Virus record (IMG/VR): IMGVR_UViG_3300035670_001176
Coordinates: 1-25,010 of that record
DNA length: 25,010 bases
Source: a virus
Strand: one strand, 5' to 3'
This document shows positions 3,682 through 15,214 of the stretch, piece by piece. The notes beneath the pieces are model-generated. The model was not told the origin of the DNA, searched no databases, and saw nothing but the letters and a program-made list of their open reading frames with translations. Made by a program: the position numbers and the translations under genes. Positions within the stretch are counted from its first letter, which is position 1. Every line of letters begins with the position of its first letter.

Positions 3682-4389
3682 ATGCCCATTCAGGTCAAAC
3701 GTGTAGCGGCCTACGAGTTTCCACAGCAGGCGGCGTATATCGCCCTGCACAATGACTACTCGGAGGACTTTGTCTGCTCTACTGAACTTGCAGAAGATCG
3801 ATGCGGCGAGATTGCGGTCGAGCGGCTAATGCTCGGCAACAAGGGCCACTATGGCCCATTGGAGCATAGTCATCTAACGCTATCTCTCCAGGCCGATCAC
3901 AATACAATCATGCAGCTTAGGACTCATCGAGTCGGGCTAACTTTTGACGTCCAATCGATGCGCTACTCTGGTCAGCGTATTGAGAAAGTTGCTAGCGGCG
4001 ATCTACCCGTCGATGACGTCTTCTACGTCCGCCCACCTGGCAAATACCGAGATCGTCAAGGCGACCCTTACGAGTGGACGGAAGACGACGCGGAAGAGTT
4101 TCGTGCCGTCGCGCTAAGTTCAGCCATTGACTATGCAGCGCTGCGGGCGCGGGGTGTCGCTGAAGAACACGCTCGCCACGCGTTGATCACTAGCTACTAC
4201 CAGAACGCCGTGGTCACCGGCAACATCCGCAGCTGGTTCCATCTGCTCGAGGTGCGCCTAAAGGCTGACGCGCAGCACGAAATCCGCCAACTGATGGAGC
4301 TGGTTGCGCTTGAAATGCAGCGCTGGATTCCCGAAGTCTACGAGTGGTGGCACTCCCACCGCCGCGGCAAAGCTATTCTCGCACCCTGA
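3682..4389 (+). CDS. thyX: FAD-dependent thymidylate synthase ThyX
   Basis: A 235-residue flavin-dependent thymidylate synthase makes dTMP from dUMP using methylene-tetrahydrofolate and NAD(P)H. Recognisable family elements are YGPLEHSHLTL (57-67), the core RTHRVGLTFDVQSMRY (80-95) and the C-terminal NIRSWFHLLEVRLKADAQHEIRQ segment with its nucleotide-contacting Arg and His residues. The core is a variant of the canonical RHRxxSxNxxSxRY, with one extra residue and no first Arg-His-Arg triplet; from memory such variants occur in cyanobacteria and their phages. Length is normal for the family. The next gene starts two bases after the stop. Confidence 0.93.
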   Translation: MPIQVKRVAAYEFPQQAAYIALHNDYSEDFVCSTELAEDRCGEIAVERLMLGNKGHYGPLEHSHLTLSLQADHNTIMQLRTHRVGLTFDVQSMRYSGQRIEKVASGDLPVDDVFYVRPPGKYRDRQGDPYEWTEDDAEEFRAVALSSAIDYAALRARGVAEEHARHALITSYYQNAVVTGNIRSWFHLLEVRLKADAQHEIRQLMELVALEMQRWIPEVYEWWHSHRRGKAILAP

Positions 4390-4996: not shown

Positions 4997-5618
4997 GGAG
5001 AAGCATGGAAAGGATTTCGACCTCACGGCACCCAAGGACGTCATCACCCAGGCCCGCGCGGTCATGGGTGGAATCGACTTCGATCCTTATACAACCCCCT
5101 ACAACAATCGCCTGGTTCTGGCTGCTCGAATCATTGATCTCAGATTGACGGACCCGGAGCTCATCGCCACCATGCCCTGGGATGCGGGCGAGAAGGCCCG
5201 TGTCTTCCTCAGCGTGCCCGGCGGCGGAACACTCTGCAGGCGTCTAGCAAACAAAGCGCTGCGGGAGTACCGCGCCGGTCGGGTCAAGGAAGCGGTCATC
5301 TGGCTCGGCGTCAACGAGTCAATGACACGTATGCCATGGATCTGGGACTTCCCGGTCTGTGTCCCATTCCGCCGGCTGAGACCCCGATACTGGGATGAGG
5401 AAGCCGAGCAGTTTCGCGCCATCGCACCGGCCAACTGGTCCTTTGCGCTGTATCTGCCGCCCAGCGACAACCCCCATGACTTCCACACCAAGCTCAGTCG
5501 CTTCCACGTCGCGTTCTCGGCGCTCGGCCGGGTCGTCTTCGACACGCACAGCGGCGAGGGCGACTGGCTCAAGGCCTACAAGGCCCTCACCAAGCGCCCC
5601 TACGACTACCACAGCTGA
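4989..5618 (+). CDS. Dam-family DNA N6-adenine methyltransferase homologue lacking the NPPY motif
   Basis: The ATG at 4989 overlaps the previous gene by eight bases and gives 209 residues. The layout follows the phage DNA N6-adenine methyltransferase (Dam, PF05869-type) family: an opening DLTAPKDVITQARAVMGGID, then FDPYTTPYNN (family pattern LDPASxxxAN), a Trp-x-x-Arg-Val strand, a long Lys/Arg helix, EAVIWLGVNESM and a late WSFALYLPPS strand. Where the family has NPPY, this protein has VFLSVPGGGT (72-81), so the catalytic tetrad is lost. It may be an inactive relative, or one with changed chemistry. The family assignment comes from my own pattern reading. Confidence 0.55.
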   Translation: MTEEKHGKDFDLTAPKDVITQARAVMGGIDFDPYTTPYNNRLVLAARIIDLRLTDPELIATMPWDAGEKARVFLSVPGGGTLCRRLANKALREYRAGRVKEAVIWLGVNESMTRMPWIWDFPVCVPFRRLRPRYWDEEAEQFRAIAPANWSFALYLPPSDNPHDFHTKLSRFHVAFSALGRVVFDTHSGEGDWLKAYKALTKRPYDYHS

Positions 5619-5631
5619 GTGGCGCTGCCGG

Positions 5632-6108
5632 GTGCCCTACGCCGAATCCCCGCGCGAGGAGTTCCAAGGGCCGACCGGGGAGTGGTTTACCAGGCTGCGT
5701 GCCATCGTCCATGACGGTTGGCTGTATTGGAAGCATGCCCTGCCCGACTACCCGCTACGGGGGCCGATCGATGAACAAGCGGCACGGGGAATCACAACCC
5801 TGGCGCGCCGGCTGCATAGTGCGCACATGAGCTTTCCGGAGTACCGGCAGCTGTTGCGCACACCTTTCCATGTCGGCCGTTGGTGGGACCCGAGAGATGC
5901 GACCGAGGACTGGAGCTGCGGCACCCGGGTCCTGCTGCGGCTAGACGGCTACAGCTCACACCGACTTGCGACCAAGCTGCCCAAACGCCTCGAGCTGCAG
6001 ACGCGGCAGTGCTCCGAGAACTGGCTCGAGATTTCCCTGCCGCCGGACGCCGAACTGCCGGTGCACTCGCTCGACTACGACAATCCCGTGGTCGCGGAGG
6101 GCGGTTGA
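5632..6108 (+). CDS. hypothetical protein (about 158 aa), GTG start assumed
   Basis: The frame ending in TGA at 6106-6108 is protein-like only after the previous stop (5618). The GTG at 5632 is the first reasonable start; no ATG is available nearby. The product is Trp/Arg/Leu-rich (WKHALPDYPLRGPIDE, FHVGRWWDPRDATEDW) and soluble. The bases before 5618 in this frame belong to the methyltransferase homologue in another frame. Function unknown. The last 34 bases overlap a convergent minus-strand gene. Confidence 0.6.
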   Translation: MPYAESPREEFQGPTGEWFTRLRAIVHDGWLYWKHALPDYPLRGPIDEQAARGITTLARRLHSAHMSFPEYRQLLRTPFHVGRWWDPRDATEDWSCGTRVLLRLDGYSSHRLATKLPKRLELQTRQCSENWLEISLPPDAELPVHSLDYDNPVVAEGG

Positions 6109-6785: not shown

Positions 6786-7217
6786 ATGGCGAAAACACGC
6801 TTTGATCTGATCCCGTTTGAAGCGATCGGCGAGATCGCTGATGTTCTCGAATACGGCGCCAACAAGTACGAAGCCCATAACTGGGCGCGCGGTGCCGACT
6901 GGTCGCGCTATTTCTCAGCCCTGTGCCGACACGTCTTTGCCTGGTGGGCCGGCGAGGACAACGACCCGGAGACCGGTTTCTCGCATCTGGCCCATGCAGG
7001 GTGCAACCTGCTCTTCTTGATGACGTTTCAGCGCCGCAGCTGGGGAACGGACGATCGCTTCCATGGCCCCAAAGAAGGCGAGGTCTTCGTGAAGGACGAC
7101 GGGCGAAGTGCGGCGCGCCGGGAGATCGACGAGTTCGTTCGCTTCGTGGGCTCTGATGAGTGCAGCGGTGGCCGCAACGAATGGATCGCGTGCAACCGTG
7201 AACTGTCCCAATCCTGA
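6786..7217 (+). CDS. DUF5664 protein, probable dATP/dGTP diphosphohydrolase-type domain
   Basis: A 143-residue protein contains the motifs of the phage DUF5664 family (named in Pfam as the N-terminal domain of a dATP/dGTP diphosphohydrolase): RFDLIPFEAIGEIADVLEYG, then KYEAHNWARGADW, then CRHVFAWWAGEDNDPETGFS and HLAHAGCNLLFL. The conserved His, Glu and Asp residues could form a metal site acting on nucleotides, so a dNTP-pool role is inferred. The ATG at 6786 fits both the family start and the promoter just upstream; a longer in-frame extension to 6528 is not protein-like. It overlaps the next gene by 62 bases. Confidence 0.8.
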   Translation: MAKTRFDLIPFEAIGEIADVLEYGANKYEAHNWARGADWSRYFSALCRHVFAWWAGEDNDPETGFSHLAHAGCNLLFLMTFQRRSWGTDDRFHGPKEGEVFVKDDGRSAARREIDEFVRFVGSDECSGGRNEWIACNRELSQS

Positions 7218-7374
7218 TTGCACGGGCCCGCGCCTGGATGTGATCGAGAGCCGCTACAGCGGCGACCGGCAGCACCGCCGTCGCCGCTATGAGTGCCCAG
7301 CCTGCGGGGCCCGCTACACGACCATGGAGACGATCGTGCGGCGCGACCTCAGCCCAGCCCGAACTGCTTGTTGA
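7156..7374 (+). CDS. small NrdR-like zinc-ribbon protein (72 aa)
   Basis: From the ATG at 7156 the 72-residue product is almost entirely one zinc ribbon: Cys17 and Cys22, then DVIESRYSGD, an Arg run (HRRRRYE), Cys47 and Cys50, then RYTTMETIVRRD. This matches the N-terminal zinc ribbon of NrdR (VIDSR...RRRRxC..C..RFTTYE) without the ATP cone. It shares the ribbon with the protein at 276. A longer GTG start at 7108 is possible but would extend deeper into the DUF5664 gene. A regulatory or DNA-binding role in nucleotide metabolism is inferred. Confidence 0.7.
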   Translation: MSAAVAATNGSRATVNCPNPDCTGPRLDVIESRYSGDRQHRRRRYECPACGARYTTMETIVRRDLSPARTAC

Positions 7375-9910: not shown

Positions 9911-10147
9911 ATGGCGACGCGCTACCTGTTGACGGTCGCAGAGGCAGCAGATGCCCTGGGTGTCAGCGAGCGTCACGTCAAGAACCTGATCCAGGAGGCG
10001 ACCGCCTGCAGGCGTTCCCGCTGGAAGTTCGGCCGCGAGCTGATCGACCTGGCGCCCCTTGGCTCAAGCCGCCGCATGGTGCGGATCAATCTGGCGGCGG
10101 TGGTGCCGAACCTTTCAGCAGCGCCCGCTCCGCCGCCTCCGCAATGA
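9911..10147 (+). CDS. excisionase-like DNA-binding protein (78 aa)
   Basis: From the ATG at 9911 the product opens with YLLTVAEAADALGVSERHVK, the winged-helix/MerR-like HTH pattern of excisionases and the HTH_17 family. NLIQEATACRRSRWKFGREL follows, and the protein ends in a Pro-rich tail. It converges on, and overlaps by 62 bases, the integrase gene on the other strand. In temperate phages small HTH proteins beside the integrase steer excision. The assignment as Xis is inferred from the fold pattern and the neighbour. A longer upstream start (9812) adds unconvincing sequence. Confidence 0.65.
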   Translation: MATRYLLTVAEAADALGVSERHVKNLIQEATACRRSRWKFGRELIDLAPLGSSRRMVRINLAAVVPNLSAAPAPPPPQ

Positions 10148-11108
10148 GGTGCGGCTGGACGTGCGCCCGGTAGGTCCGGGAATGCTGAAGCGGCGAATGT
10201 CCCATGAGCCGGCTGGCCGTGTAGATGTCCAGGCTGCTGCCGCCCTCGCGCCACAGCCGACCCGCGTACGCATGCCGTAGGGCGTAAGGCCGATAGGGCA
10301 ATGAGAGCTTCCGCAGCTCCTTGGAGACCCACTTTGCGGTCTGGTCGTTGCGGGCGGGCTCGCTGGTCAACATCGGCCGCAACCGCCGATTCCTCAGATC
10401 GAAAAGCGCAACCCACTCTCTGGGGACCGGGATGACCGTGCGAAATCCCGTCTTTGTGCGTTCCTGCACCTGCAGGTAGTCGCGCTCGAGGAACTCTGTG
10501 CTCTCAATCTCGTGCGGCCTGAGGCCATAGGTGGCCATCATTCCGAAATACCAGCGGGCGGGTTCTTGGGCGCTGTTCACCCAGGCGATGATCTCCTCGT
10601 CCGTGGGGACCGCGACCAGTTCCGCCTGCCCGTACGTCGGTACCGGCACCTCCGGGAAGGGGACGTCGACCAGGCGGCTGAGATGCTTGAGCAGGTAGTA
10701 GAGCTCCTTATAGCTGCAGGAGCTCCGCTCATAGCGCTGCAGAGCCGCCGCCATTGAATCGGAGCTGCAGCGGCTGGCGGGCGGAATCTGCCGCAGCCGC
10801 CCCAGGTAGTTGATCTCCCAGGTCGACTCGGAGGTGCGGCCCAGGACGACCCGGGCCCGGTACAGCTTGGCGATGGCCTCACGCCAGCTGATGCCCTCCT
10901 CCTCATCACGCCAGTAGGACCACTGGAAGGTCCCGGTGTCCAGCTGCCGCTGGAGGGTCTTGAGCTGCTTGGCCGCCGTGCGTCGATTGACCGGCGTGTC
11001 GTCCAGCCGCAGGGGGATCCGGGTCTGCATGAGACCCGGGCTGCCGTCGCGGCGCGGGACCTTGGCCAGCAGGTACAGCTTGCCCCGATGGATGTTGACG
11101 GAGGCCAT
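10086..11108 (-). CDS. int: tyrosine-recombinase integrase
   Basis: This 340-residue protein has an N-terminal Arm/core-binding region and a C-terminal catalytic domain. The catalytic residues in order are Arg197 (MATYGLRPHEIES), Lys219 (ERTKTGFRT), the box II segment YALRHAYAGR with Arg278 and Tyr275 in place of the more usual His, His304 (LMGHSP) and the nucleophile Tyr313 (HSRTYRAH). It would integrate and excise the phage genome at att sites. No att core is visible here without the host junction. The start at 11108 leaves about 58 bases to the next gene, holding the dyad at 11149. This makes the element temperate or recently so. Confidence 0.93.
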   Translation of the reverse strand: MASVNIHRGKLYLLAKVPRRDGSPGLMQTRIPLRLDDTPVNRRTAAKQLKTLQRQLDTGTFQWSYWRDEEEGISWREAIAKLYRARVVLGRTSESTWEINYLGRLRQIPPASRCSSDSMAAALQRYERSSCSYKELYYLLKHLSRLVDVPFPEVPVPTYGQAELVAVPTDEEIIAWVNSAQEPARWYFGMMATYGLRPHEIESTEFLERDYLQVQERTKTGFRTVIPVPREWVALFDLRNRRLRPMLTSEPARNDQTAKWVSKELRKLSLPYRPYALRHAYAGRLWREGGSSLDIYTASRLMGHSPLQHSRTYRAHVQPHLIAEAAERALLKGSAPPPPD

Positions 11109-11914: not shown

Positions 11915-12013
11915 CTAGGAAGCAGTCACCCATGCTTCATTGACGTCCGGCGTATTGGGATCGTCGCCGACATACCGCCCTAACTCGCTGCGCGCTCGAG
12001 TTAGGGCGGTCAC
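11915..12013 (-). CDS. 32-residue peptide, GTG start overlapping the upstream stop
   Basis: GTG at 12011-12013 overlaps the TGA of the gene before it (GTGA), and the frame runs to TAG at 11915-11917. The peptide is MTALTRARSELGRY followed by VGDDPNTPDVNEAWVTAS, which is coherent and unlike a random frame. The start-stop overlap supports translation. Most of its first half is also a perfect inverted repeat (11975-12009), so RNA structure could control or compete with its translation. Function unknown. Confidence 0.45.
   Translation of the reverse strand: MTALTRARSELGRYVGDDPNTPDVNEAWVTAS
11975..12009. repeat. perfect 13-bp inverted repeat with 9-base loop
   Basis: CCGCCCTAACTCG (11975-11987) and CGAGTTAGGGCGG (11997-12009) are exact complements around a 9-base loop, CTGCGCGCT. 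It touches the stop codon of the 12010 gene and lies inside the 32-residue frame. It would form a very stable hairpin in RNA from either strand, or a cruciform. A terminator, a coupling hairpin or a recombinase site are possible roles. Confidence 0.8.
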
Positions 12014-12423
12014 TTTCCCAGGGCCTCTTGGACCTCCTCCAGAGTCGGGAAGGGATGATCCGCTTTGACCTGTAGACAGGCCAGTCGGTAAGCCTCAACC
12101 TGCTCGGCGTCACCCTTGGCTACTGCGTCGAGGTAATCGGTTGCTGGCGGGTATTCCGCAGCCCGTTGCAGCCGGATGCCATGCTTCCGTGCTTCGAGGA
12201 CATCAGTGGCGTAATCGCCCTCGGGGAGATCAGCGCCGGCCAGAGCGGCTTCAAGGTCGTGCTGGAACAGCGTGAGGCTGAACACCTCGTAGCCGGTGTA
12301 ACTGGCGTCGCCAGAGGCGTCTTCCTCTACCGTCACCCCAAGAGGAACGATCCAGCCACCATCGACTGGGCGGGGCTTAGGGGGTGTAGAGCCAAAAGAG
12401 GCAGCTGTCATTGCGCCTGACAT
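12010..12423 (-). CDS. tail-assembly-chaperone-like protein (137 aa)
   Basis: This 137-residue acidic protein starts four bases after the reverse-transcriptase stop, with GCAGGT seven bases before the ATG. Its last third (AAEYPPATDYLDAVAKGD, then AEQVEAYRLACLQVKADHPF) resembles the C-terminus of phage tail-fibre assembly and XkdW-type proteins (P-x-Y-x-D-x-x-A-x-G...Y...C-x-x-V-K-x-x-x-P). Its place after the receptor-protein/DGR genes supports a role in tail assembly. It is not Avd-like: Avd is a basic four-helix protein and this one is acidic with beta-rich N-terminal sequence (GGWIVPLGVTVEED). Confidence 0.5.
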   Translation of the reverse strand: MSGAMTAASFGSTPPKPRPVDGGWIVPLGVTVEEDASGDASYTGYEVFSLTLFQHDLEAALAGADLPEGDYATDVLEARKHGIRLQRAAEYPPATDYLDAVAKGDAEQVEAYRLACLQVKADHPFPTLEEVQEALGK

Positions 12424-12427
12424 AACG

Positions 12428-13468
12428 TTACCTGCATTCTACGGTGAGCAACCTGCGGCGTAATGCCTTCAGGTAATTCCGATAGCGACCTTTAGCCCTA
12501 AGTACAATCTTTCGGTTGAAACCACGGTTATCGCAGTATTTGAGCCAGCCCTTGTAAGTGCCTATGCAGTTGCGTAATCGCAATGCTTCGTTCACAGTCA
12601 TGCGCCTGCATCGCAGGCGACGCTGAAAGTTCTGCAACGTACCTCGGCGCAACTTGGTTCTTTGAGGCCAGAAGCGGTAGCCCAAGAAGTCGAGACCACG
12701 GGCTTCCAGCGGAAACACTTGCCAGTTGCCTTTCAGCTGCAGTCTGTAGTCAGCCAGCTGGTCCTTGATTTCGCGGCGCAGATCATGCAGCACAGCTTTT
12801 GACTCGTGCAGGATCACGAAATCATCGCAGTAGCGGAAGTAATGCTTCACGCCTTTGTCTTCTTTGATCCAGTGATCAAATGGACTGAGCACGATGTTCC
12901 CGAAATACTGGCTCAGGTAATTACCGATCGGCACGCCTGGGCCGGAGTCAATTATGATGTCGAGAAGACCTAAAAGCTTGTGGTCCTTGATCCGTGCTCG
13001 GAGAATATCCTTAAGGATGTCGTGATCAACGGATGGGTAGAACTTGCGAATATCGCATTTCAAGGCGTAAAAGCCGCTGCAGTGGGGCATGATGCGTTGG
13101 ATGCGACGTACACCGTCGTGGATGCCGCGCCCTGGAATCGAAGCGTAGGTGTCGCGAATCATGCCCTTGACCCAGATCGGGCCGCAGACCTGCACCACGG
13201 CGTGATGCACAATCCGATCTGGATAGAAAGGCAACGAGTAGATGATGCGCTCCTTGCCGCGCTCAACCAACGTAAAGATGTTGTAGCGCCCATTAACGAA
13301 GCGCTCCTCAATCAGAATCCGCTGCAGCTGATCAAGGTGACGCTCAGGGTTGGCAAGGACGCGCTGCACCGACCTGATGTGCTGTTTACCCTGGCTGGCC
13401 CCCTGCAGCGCCACCCGCAGGTTCTCCATTGCATGAACCTGCTCATAGAGATAGCCGTAGCGCTTCAT
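12428..13468 (-). CDS. reverse transcriptase of a diversity-generating retroelement
   Basis: This 346-residue reverse transcriptase copies the template-repeat RNA with errors at adenines. Family marks in order are IIYSLPFYPDRIVHHAV (75-91), YASIPGRGIHDGV (108-120), catalytic Asp139 in ALKCDIRKFYPSVDHD, the DGR-type IGNYLSQ motif (181-187; compare IGSLTSQ in the Bordetella phage enzyme), the active-site YCDD (213-216), LDFLGYRFWP and a basic C-terminus. There is no maturase or endonuclease domain, which argues against a group II intron. TR lies directly upstream in the same orientation. CTGAGGGC, with a usable GAGGG 11 bases before the ATG, is half of an inverted repeat. Confidence 0.93.
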   Translation of the reverse strand: MKRYGYLYEQVHAMENLRVALQGASQGKQHIRSVQRVLANPERHLDQLQRILIEERFVNGRYNIFTLVERGKERIIYSLPFYPDRIVHHAVVQVCGPIWVKGMIRDTYASIPGRGIHDGVRRIQRIMPHCSGFYALKCDIRKFYPSVDHDILKDILRARIKDHKLLGLLDIIIDSGPGVPIGNYLSQYFGNIVLSPFDHWIKEDKGVKHYFRYCDDFVILHESKAVLHDLRREIKDQLADYRLQLKGNWQVFPLEARGLDFLGYRFWPQRTKLRRGTLQNFQRRLRCRRMTVNEALRLRNCIGTYKGWLKYCDNRGFNRKIVLRAKGRYRNYLKALRRRLLTVECR

Positions 13469-13478
13469 TGAGTTTTAA

Positions 13479-13596
13479 GCCCTCAGCATTGCGGGGTGTT
13501 CGAGCAAGCTACTAACCCTTTGCGCAGCGCAACTATTTTACCAAGAGGTGCGGCCTGCTCCGTATGACAGTTGATAGTTGCCAAGAGTCTGAGGGC
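13479..13596 (-). repeat. 8-bp inverted repeat bracketing the TR-RT spacer and masking the RT ribosome-binding site
   Basis: GCCCTCAG (plus strand 13479-13486) and CTGAGGGC (13589-13596) are exact reverse complements separated by 102 bases. One arm abuts the 3' end of TR (in the minus sense). The other contains the presumed Shine-Dalgarno of the reverse transcriptase. Inside lies the palindrome TTGCGC-A-GCGCAA (13520-13532). No gene is seen in the interval: the short minus-strand frame at 13483-13671 only reads through TR. Pairing in RNA is inference. Confidence 0.45.
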
Positions 13597-13599
13597 ATT

Positions 13600-13723
13600 G
13601 GCAGTCCGGGCTCCGATGTTCGAATTCGCATTCGAGGAGGCATTATTCGCATTGAGCGTGAATGCCCCCACTTGCGCGCCATTGTTCGAGTTGCCTCCAA
13701 CATTGGCTACACGCCAGCCGGTG
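13600..13723 (-). repeat. DGR template repeat (TR)
   Basis: This block aligns without gaps to 13802-13925 (offset 202). From 13601 to 13723 there are 22 mismatches, all at plus-strand T (minus-strand A) of this copy; 8 T residues are unchanged, and none of the 93 A/C/G columns differs. Read in the frame of the target gene it contains about ten AAY (Asn) codons, as in known templates. Two further T substitutions extend the homology to 13598 before it ends. Confidence 0.95.
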
Positions 13724-13747
13724 AGGCGGAGTCAGGCCACTACCATC

Positions 13748-13763
13748 ATAGCGCCAATGCTAT
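13748..13763 (-). other. small hairpin between VR and TR
   Basis: ATAGC-GCCAAT-GCTAT gives a 5-bp stem with a 6-base loop about 38 bases beyond the 3' end of VR. In Bordetella phage BPP-1 a hairpin/cruciform downstream of VR aids target recognition. This one is shorter and AT-rich, so equivalence is only suggested by position. Confidence 0.25.
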
Positions 13764-13786
13764 ACTGGCAAGTGAGGTTGGCTTGG

Positions 13787-15214
13787 TTAATTTTCGGCCC
13801 AGGCAGCCCGGGCCCCGAAGCTCGAACTCGCATCCGAGGAGGCAACAACCGCAGCGAGCGCGAACGCCCCCACCTGCGCGCCATCGTTCGAGCGGCCCCC
13901 AACAAAGGCCACACGCCAGCCGGTGCTCGTCCACGTTGCATCACCAAGATAAGAGGTGCTGGATGCGCCGCTCACCACAGAGGGCAGGAACACATCAGGG
14001 AACGGATGCAGCTCTTTCTGATAGGAAGAGCTGGCGCTTAGAAGTTGGGCGTACATCCGGTAGCCCACGCTGGTGTTATCGGCAAAAACGGACTGGTCGT
14101 TGGTGAGATACACAACCCGTTCGTACAGATTGAAGCCATCTACCCACTGCCAAGTCCTTCCGTATAGGTTCTCGATTCCCCGATACGACATGAAGTCAGT
14201 ATTGGCACCGCCTGCGGTATAGGCATTGCCATTGCGATTACCACGGGCGTTGCTCAACCCGTTGGCCACCACATAGACGGCGCCCTCCTGGGCGCCATTA
14301 CCGATAACCTTCTGGCTGTTGTGGTCGCGGTACTCGCAGACCAGCAGTGTCTGGATGGCGGCGTACTCGAGGTAGCTCTGGACATGCCAGCCGGTGCCAC
14401 GCGCAGCAGCCCGCGACCGCGACGTGGCCCGCGTGATGCTCACCACGTTGTTCGCACCACTGACGCTGCCAAGGATGCCCCCGGAAGCGTTATGCGCCTG
14501 GTAGGCACCGATGTAGAAGGCGCTCTTGTAGCTGCCGTCAGCCTTGATGAAGGCCGGATGCGGCTGGAATCCTTGGGCAATCAGCGAGTCCGAGCAGCCC
14601 AGCCGCACCTCACGCGTGTGAACGCCGCTGACAAAGCCATAGCGCACCGAGAACGCTGGCACCTCCACCATCACCTGGCCATCAGTGCCAGTGAGATCAG
14701 AGGTGACGCTGCCGGCAGCAGGCTCAGCGGTCGTGCTCGTGGCAATGCACTCCCACAGCGAACCGTTATGGGTCACACGCTGGCCACGGGTGAAGGTGCC
14801 AGCAGCCCAGGCTGGGCTGCTGGCACGGAGCAGGCTGTTGGTGGTCTCCTGGGTCGTGCCGGTGTAGGCCGTGTTCAGAGACTGGGTCTCAACGATCCGC
14901 AGCCAGTCACCAGCCTTCTTGGTGCTGTCGTTAGCGTCGAGGTAATACTGAACGACGCCGGAATCGTTGATCACGCAGCGCCGTAGGCGAGATTGCACGT
15001 CGAGGTCAATCGTGCCAGATAGACCGCCAGCGCGAATCGACGTGCCCGGCAGATACAGCCCATAGTCGTCATTGCTGTGGTTCCACCCGAAAACGGGACC
15101 CGGCGCAATGGATTGCCAGCTGGGCGCTGCCGCGCTACCACTGCTCACGAGCACTTGACCAGCGCTCCCGAACGAGGAAGGCGCCGGAATCGAAGGACGG
15201 AAGTAAAAACTCAT
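13787..15214 (-). CDS. DGR target: receptor-binding tail protein with C-type-lectin/FGE-like C-terminus
   Basis: The 475-residue protein begins with a fibre-like segment (PAPSSFGSAGQVLVSSGS). It includes a carbohydrate-binding-module-like stretch (GTFTRGQRVTHNGSLWECIA). It ends in a domain typical of DGR targets: MSYRGIENLYGRTWQWVDGF from residue 342, GYRMYAQLL, then the variable segment 430-472 (TGWRVAFVGGRSNDGAQVG onward) and a short tail. Compared with TR, Asn codons have become Phe437, Arg441, Asp444, Ala454, Val456, Val457, Asp461, Ser463 and Ser465, and Ile became Phe466. It lies among tail genes and probably contacts the host surface. Variation there would change adsorption specificity. 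Confidence 0.88.
   Translation of the reverse strand: MSFYFRPSIPAPSSFGSAGQVLVSSGSAAAPSWQSIAPGPVFGWNHSNDDYGLYLPGTSIRAGGLSGTIDLDVQSRLRRCVINDSGVVQYYLDANDSTKKAGDWLRIVETQSLNTAYTGTTQETTNSLLRASSPAWAAGTFTRGQRVTHNGSLWECIATSTTAEPAAGSVTSDLTGTDGQVMVEVPAFSVRYGFVSGVHTREVRLGCSDSLIAQGFQPHPAFIKADGSYKSAFYIGAYQAHNASGGILGSVSGANNVVSITRATSRSRAAARGTGWHVQSYLEYAAIQTLLVCEYRDHNSQKVIGNGAQEGAVYVVANGLSNARGNRNGNAYTAGGANTDFMSYRGIENLYGRTWQWVDGFNLYERVVYLTNDQSVFADNTSVGYRMYAQLLSASSSYQKELHPFPDVFLPSVVSGASSTSYLGDATWTSTGWRVAFVGGRSNDGAQVGAFALAAVVASSDASSSFGARAAWAEN
13802..13925 (-). repeat. DGR variable repeat (VR)
   Basis: The 3'-terminal coding segment of the target gene, ending 13 bases before the end of its stop codon. It matches TR except at 22 template adenines. 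On the coding strand the changes are 15 A to G, 5 A to T and 2 A to C. The 3' part contains GC-rich GGGGCCCGGGCTGCC (coding sense), the likely initiation-of-mutagenic-homing region. Its TR counterpart differs there only at adenines. Confidence 0.95.

Follow-up and report, generated by a model that had tools for sequence, protein, structure and literature searches.

The window, by which we mean the whole stretch of 25,010 nucleotides analysed here (IMG/VR record IMGVR_UViG_3300035670_001176), almost certainly carries a complete diversity-generating retroelement (DGR), presumably with a BPP-1-like mechanism, in a phage partly related to the freshwater cyanophage S-EIVl. As the initial annotation held, the target gene with its variable repeat (VR), the template repeat (TR) and the reverse transcriptase (RT) share one orientation, all four parts lying on the minus strand in the order target/VR–TR–RT, with the VR inside the target ORF and the TR outside it, adjoining the RT. 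That the element is complete is borne out by TR/VR differences confined to adenine, by an RT nested among DGR RTs, by the C-terminal position of the VR and by a match of the target to the fold of DGR variable proteins.

The two repeats, at 13600–13723 (TR) and 13802–13925 (VR), were recovered by a mechanical repeat search of the window. On the coding (minus) strand 22 of the 30 template adenines are changed, as against none of the 94 other bases in 124 ungapped columns; the initial annotation had the adenine count right and was one short in both columns (123) and other bases (93). Its tally of 15 A to G, 5 A to T and 2 A to C changes agrees with ours. An extension that tolerates differences at adenine lengthens the repeat to 126 columns (TR, 13598–13723, with 32 adenines; VR, 13800–13925; both minus strand and 126 nt), in which 24 of the 32 adenines are altered and every difference is again at adenine. 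About a quarter of the template adenines are thus unaltered in the VR, matching the expectation for random replacement by any base, and G is over-represented among the substitutions. In-frame AAY codons are the usual design of a DGR template; the TR has ten, nine of which are altered in the VR to Phe, Arg, Asp, Ala, Val or Ser. There is a negligible chance that the repeats arose by ordinary duplication and divergence, or are a repeat hypermutated in the manner of a deaminase, beside an unrelated RT. Such a reading accounts for the presence of a repeat and for nothing further, and is refuted by mismatches that all fall on template adenine (hypergeometric P 4.2e-18) and go to all three other bases, by the same TR/VR arrangement in most relatives and by the RT tree, which places the enzyme in the DGR lineage. 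Around 32 nt downstream of the VR is a weak candidate for an imperfect stem-loop (13743–13768, minus strand): the segment 13738–13775 has a folding energy of −6.4 kcal/mol, equalled or bettered in 8 of 200 shuffles, and hairpins are similarly placed in several relatives. No difference between IMH and IMH* could be marked out in the cassette.

The target gene (13787–15214, minus strand) encodes a 475-aa protein of tail or receptor-binding type with a C-terminal variable region, the VR sitting at the 3′ end of the ORF and the stop codon ending 13 nt past it. Among the PHROGs it matches the tail protein phrog_5302 (E 1.7e-90). The AlphaFold2 model (pTM 0.73) has as its top PDB match TaqVP (5vf4, E 5.9e-10), with Mtd second at a weak E-value; on this model, with its mean pLDDT of 63, the predicted fold matches that of the C-type-lectin-like DGR variable proteins.

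The RT gene (12428–13468, minus strand) is an open frame of 346 aa in which the IGNYLSQ and YCDD motifs are both intact, as originally noted. The protein matches RVT_1 (E 2.3e-14) and phrog_1423 (E 7.8e-112) and is 32% identical to BPP-1 Brt; its best PDB relative is 8ub7 (E 6.5e-40), which we take to be the RT of a Bordetella phage DGR, with a group II intron RT reaching only 2.8e-17. In a tree of 72 rows, built without a non-DGR outgroup so that placement means nesting among cassette-bearing RTs, the window RT falls in a starred four-row clade with those of the cassette-bearing relatives L002, L003 and L005, among RTs whose loci carry adenine-only TR/VR pairs. Judged by these sequence comparisons the RT is a member of the DGR lineage. 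A scan of the 80 nearest viral RT loci detected a TR/VR pair at 69, making the element less exceptional than first thought; the cassette is of a known kind and ordinary for its class.

Some relatives arrange their repeats differently. Many, among them L031, L041, L044, L047, L078 and L080, have a single TR serving two or three VRs, each in an ORF of its own, and at L077 two VR-like copies (10369 and 11918) lie 4–6 kb downstream of the TR and not just upstream. L006, a contig related to S-EIVl that has a full-length RT, contains two abutting tandem VR-like copies in one target region (5491–5687), the second of which lacks TR bases 1–30 and seems to be in a different frame; this looks like an accident of retrohoming or recombination.

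Near-identical relatives that differ almost only at TR adenines show that DGRs of the family do operate in nature. The VRs of L038 and L059 differ at 16 of 27 adenines and at none of 85 other positions, with no difference in the TR (0/112) or flanks (0/2666); for L029 and L070 the corresponding values are 16/35, 0/79, 0/114 and 0/1428. The nearly identical contigs L035 and L036 also differ in the VR almost only at TR adenines, their TRs and flanks being identical, and the VR differences between L009, L010 and L013 are mostly at TR adenines with slight drift elsewhere. Searches of viral contigs with a TR pattern in which adenine was left free, and with an RT pattern, found no alleles of the window phage. 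The recent retrohoming originally proposed is soundly drawn from the lack of any non-adenine difference between TR and VR; for the window copy, of which no allele was found, both it and present activity would seem likely.

A cassette can look intact and have recently stopped retrohoming, as the case of S-EIVl illustrates. This cultured Synechococcus phage from a high-arctic lake (KJ410740; locus L196, KJ410740.1 13828–27123, 7254–7854) has a DGR, not annotated in the KJ410740 record, that keeps its VR, TR and spacer RNA; its RT has undergone an internal deletion that leaves a stub of some 27 N-terminal codons next to a C-terminal fragment, and a search of all 79 kb of the record revealed no other RT. 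Although the RT is a stub, 27 of the 29 VR/TR differences are at adenine, so that an adenine-only signature alone is no proof of present activity. We consider a recent inactivation of the window DGR quite improbable, given that its RT frame is open with intact motifs and that its TR and VR have accumulated no non-adenine differences at all. The orphaned DGR of S-EIVl might be used as a naturally occurring RT-minus control.

Apart from the target, six window proteins have relatives in S-EIVl, two of them weak, and no near DNA matches of the window were found among GenBank phages. The window phage is probably a phage of freshwater picocyanobacteria. A divergent tyrosine recombinase (phage integrase) gene at 10086–11108 (minus strand) hints at a temperate phage. 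Along with the tail module, the same record holds genes of nucleotide metabolism, for ThyX (3682–4389) and a dCMP-deaminase-like protein (984–1529), and two small proteins (276–749 and 7108–7374; all four on the plus strand) whose N-termini (CPxC...CxxC) look by eye like NrdR zinc ribbons.

Between TR and RT lies a spacer, 113–137 nt long in close relatives, that has conserved blocks and covaries as a structured RNA. A putative 5′ arm, GCCCUCAG (13589–13596, minus strand), begins some 1–2 nt past the last TR/VR homologous base and can pair with a 3′ arm, CUGAGGGC (13479–13486, minus strand), in a helix that appears to close the spacer; the relatives L009–L013 have GCCCCCAG/CUGGGGGC in place of GCCCUCAG/CUGAGGGC. 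Within it, the predicted core (13489–13555, minus strand) consists of a UCUU-loop hairpin, an A-rich single-stranded stretch and a helix interrupted by AGUA/GAA, an interruption whose sequence resembles the bulged-G (sarcin–ricin) module. RNAalifold on the long untrimmed alignment had given only a partial structure (−6.2 kcal/mol), and it was trimming together with helices found by eye that led to the structure tested. In 41 sequences all 15 pairs of this three-helix structure show changes on both sides, and the covariation score is 0.582, against 0.217 ± 0.017 for shuffles and no more than 0.161 on sliding, a comparison that favours the unslid version because the alignment was made by sequence and the structure read from it. 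Matches of the covariance model outside its training set are free of this alignment bias. They occur just upstream of the RT remnant of S-EIVl (E 1.8e-14), just upstream of the RT gene of the crAss-like phage cr55_1 (E 4e-15) and at 17 of 40 cellular DGR loci (E < 2e-4), at the last always on the RT strand and just upstream of the RT; the window spacer, a training sequence, is matched with E 1.4e-11. BPP-1-like spacers are matched weakly, two of them at the expected place (E 0.03 and 0.27). Rfam, applied to the window and four relatives, returned two tRNAs and no family for the spacer, and the covariance model, lacking an Rfam counterpart, offers a marker of DGR template RNA. In BPP-1, bRT–Avd is recruited by the folded structure of the spacer, an adenine of which primes the cDNA (PMC12875486); by analogy, the window spacer RNA may have a similar role in RT recruitment and cDNA priming.

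No bAvd was detected in any of 13 records (the window record and 12 viral relatives), these being fragments in which a diverged partner could be missed; all four BPP-1-like controls have it. Neither PF05635 nor HRDC gave a match over the cut-off in the DGR family of the window. The association concerns viral records only, since bAvd genes do occur somewhere in several of the cellular genomes that have spacer-RNA loci, possibly as parts of other cassettes. We infer that the window DGR is independent of an Avd-type partner. Directly downstream of the RT is an ORF for a 137-aa protein (12010–12423, minus strand), kept in close relatives (L002, L003, L005, L007, L016 and L018) and 49% identical to its S-EIVl counterpart. 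Considered as an Avd, it found no support and has no Pfam match. It matches phrog_2687 (E 1.7e-4). Its role may be that of a chaperone in tail assembly and not that of a DGR accessory protein.

Which base replaces a template adenine depends on its 3′ neighbour in the template, the base copied just before. Over 91 non-redundant VRs, 94% of changes at A before G are to G, those at A before C are 80% G, 15% T and 5% C, and A before A or T gives mixed outcomes. In all 35 TR clusters, G arises more often before G/C than before A/T, and the observed difference of 0.466 compares with a maximum of 0.095 in 1000 within-VR shuffles. In the window VR itself, the changed adenines became G in 8/8 cases before G/C and in 8/16 before A/T (Fisher p 0.02). 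Slippage, in which the preceding template base is re-used, was rejected as a general rule, since changes to C are rare at A before C in the family. DiGReF judged the substitutions essentially random (PMC3521204), and for BPP-1 in E. coli the 3′ base had earlier been shown to dominate, with A before C favouring G insertion, equivalent to coding A to C (PMC12875486). Of the changes at A before C, 27% are to C in natural BPP-1-like VRs (bootstrap 20–35%) and 5% (3–7%) in the family of the window; no description of this lineage difference was found in the literature searched.

Natural VRs have passed selection, and the neighbour dependence might reflect selection on the protein and not the enzyme. 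The overall excess of A to G would fit a preference for codons of small residues, the VR of S-EIVl alone departs from the A-before-C trend, and the result for A before T at four-fold degenerate sites comes largely from a single position in a single TR family. We think selection unlikely as the explanation, however, because adenines followed by G at third positions with four-fold degeneracy go to G in 84 of 86 changes, because AAC and AAT, though equivalent in the amino acids they can give rise to, diverge at their second A (p 1e-7), and because the cellular loci that carry the spacer RNA, a separate set, yield a nearly identical substitution table. The pattern would seem to be set by the enzyme. 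The contrast with BPP-1-like DGRs is directly testable by cDNA sequencing.

Tentatively, and with somewhat less than even confidence, we suggest that the DGR of the window is one of a broad lineage that functions with no Avd-type protein, depends on its own conserved spacer RNA scaffold (UCUU hairpin and AGUA/GAA internal loop) and has an RT whose error code is set by the previously copied base in a way unlike that of BPP-1. The interest of the element lies mostly in these comparative findings, namely the spacer RNA, the substitution code and the orphaned DGR of S-EIVl.

By analogy with BPP-1, the RT would bind the structured spacer RNA between the TR and its own gene, and cDNA synthesis would begin at the base of the spacer, close to the 3′ end of the TR. 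The RT would then copy the TR in the direction of its 5′ end and put in wrong bases opposite adenines, and the VR at the 3′ end of the tail protein gene would be replaced by this mutagenised cDNA. Progeny would thus carry different receptor-binding surfaces, assuming that the target binds a receptor. It is on this analogy that reverse transcription and retrohoming are proposed for the window phage.

Compared with BPP-1 itself (brt, Avd, TR and the VR of mtd; NC_005357), the cassette has the same target/VR–TR–RT order on one strand, the same mutation of adenine only, a C-terminal VR in a tail protein and a TR–RT spacer of about 130–145 nt. It differs in Avd, which lies between TR and mtd in BPP-1 and was not detected in the window, and in the spacer RNA and treatment of A before C described above. 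TaqVP, the variable protein of the Thermus aquaticus DGR, is the best fold match of the target, but is a cellular protein with only 17–18% identity to it. In crAss-like phage DGRs, represented by uncultured phage cr55_1, the RT is 44% identical and the spacer RNA is present, though the phage is otherwise unrelated and its target and RT are more distant. A relative of the target is encoded by S-EIVl, whose protein is 71% identical over 432 aa; S-EIVl also has the VR, TR, spacer RNA and several other related proteins, and differs in its internally deleted RT.
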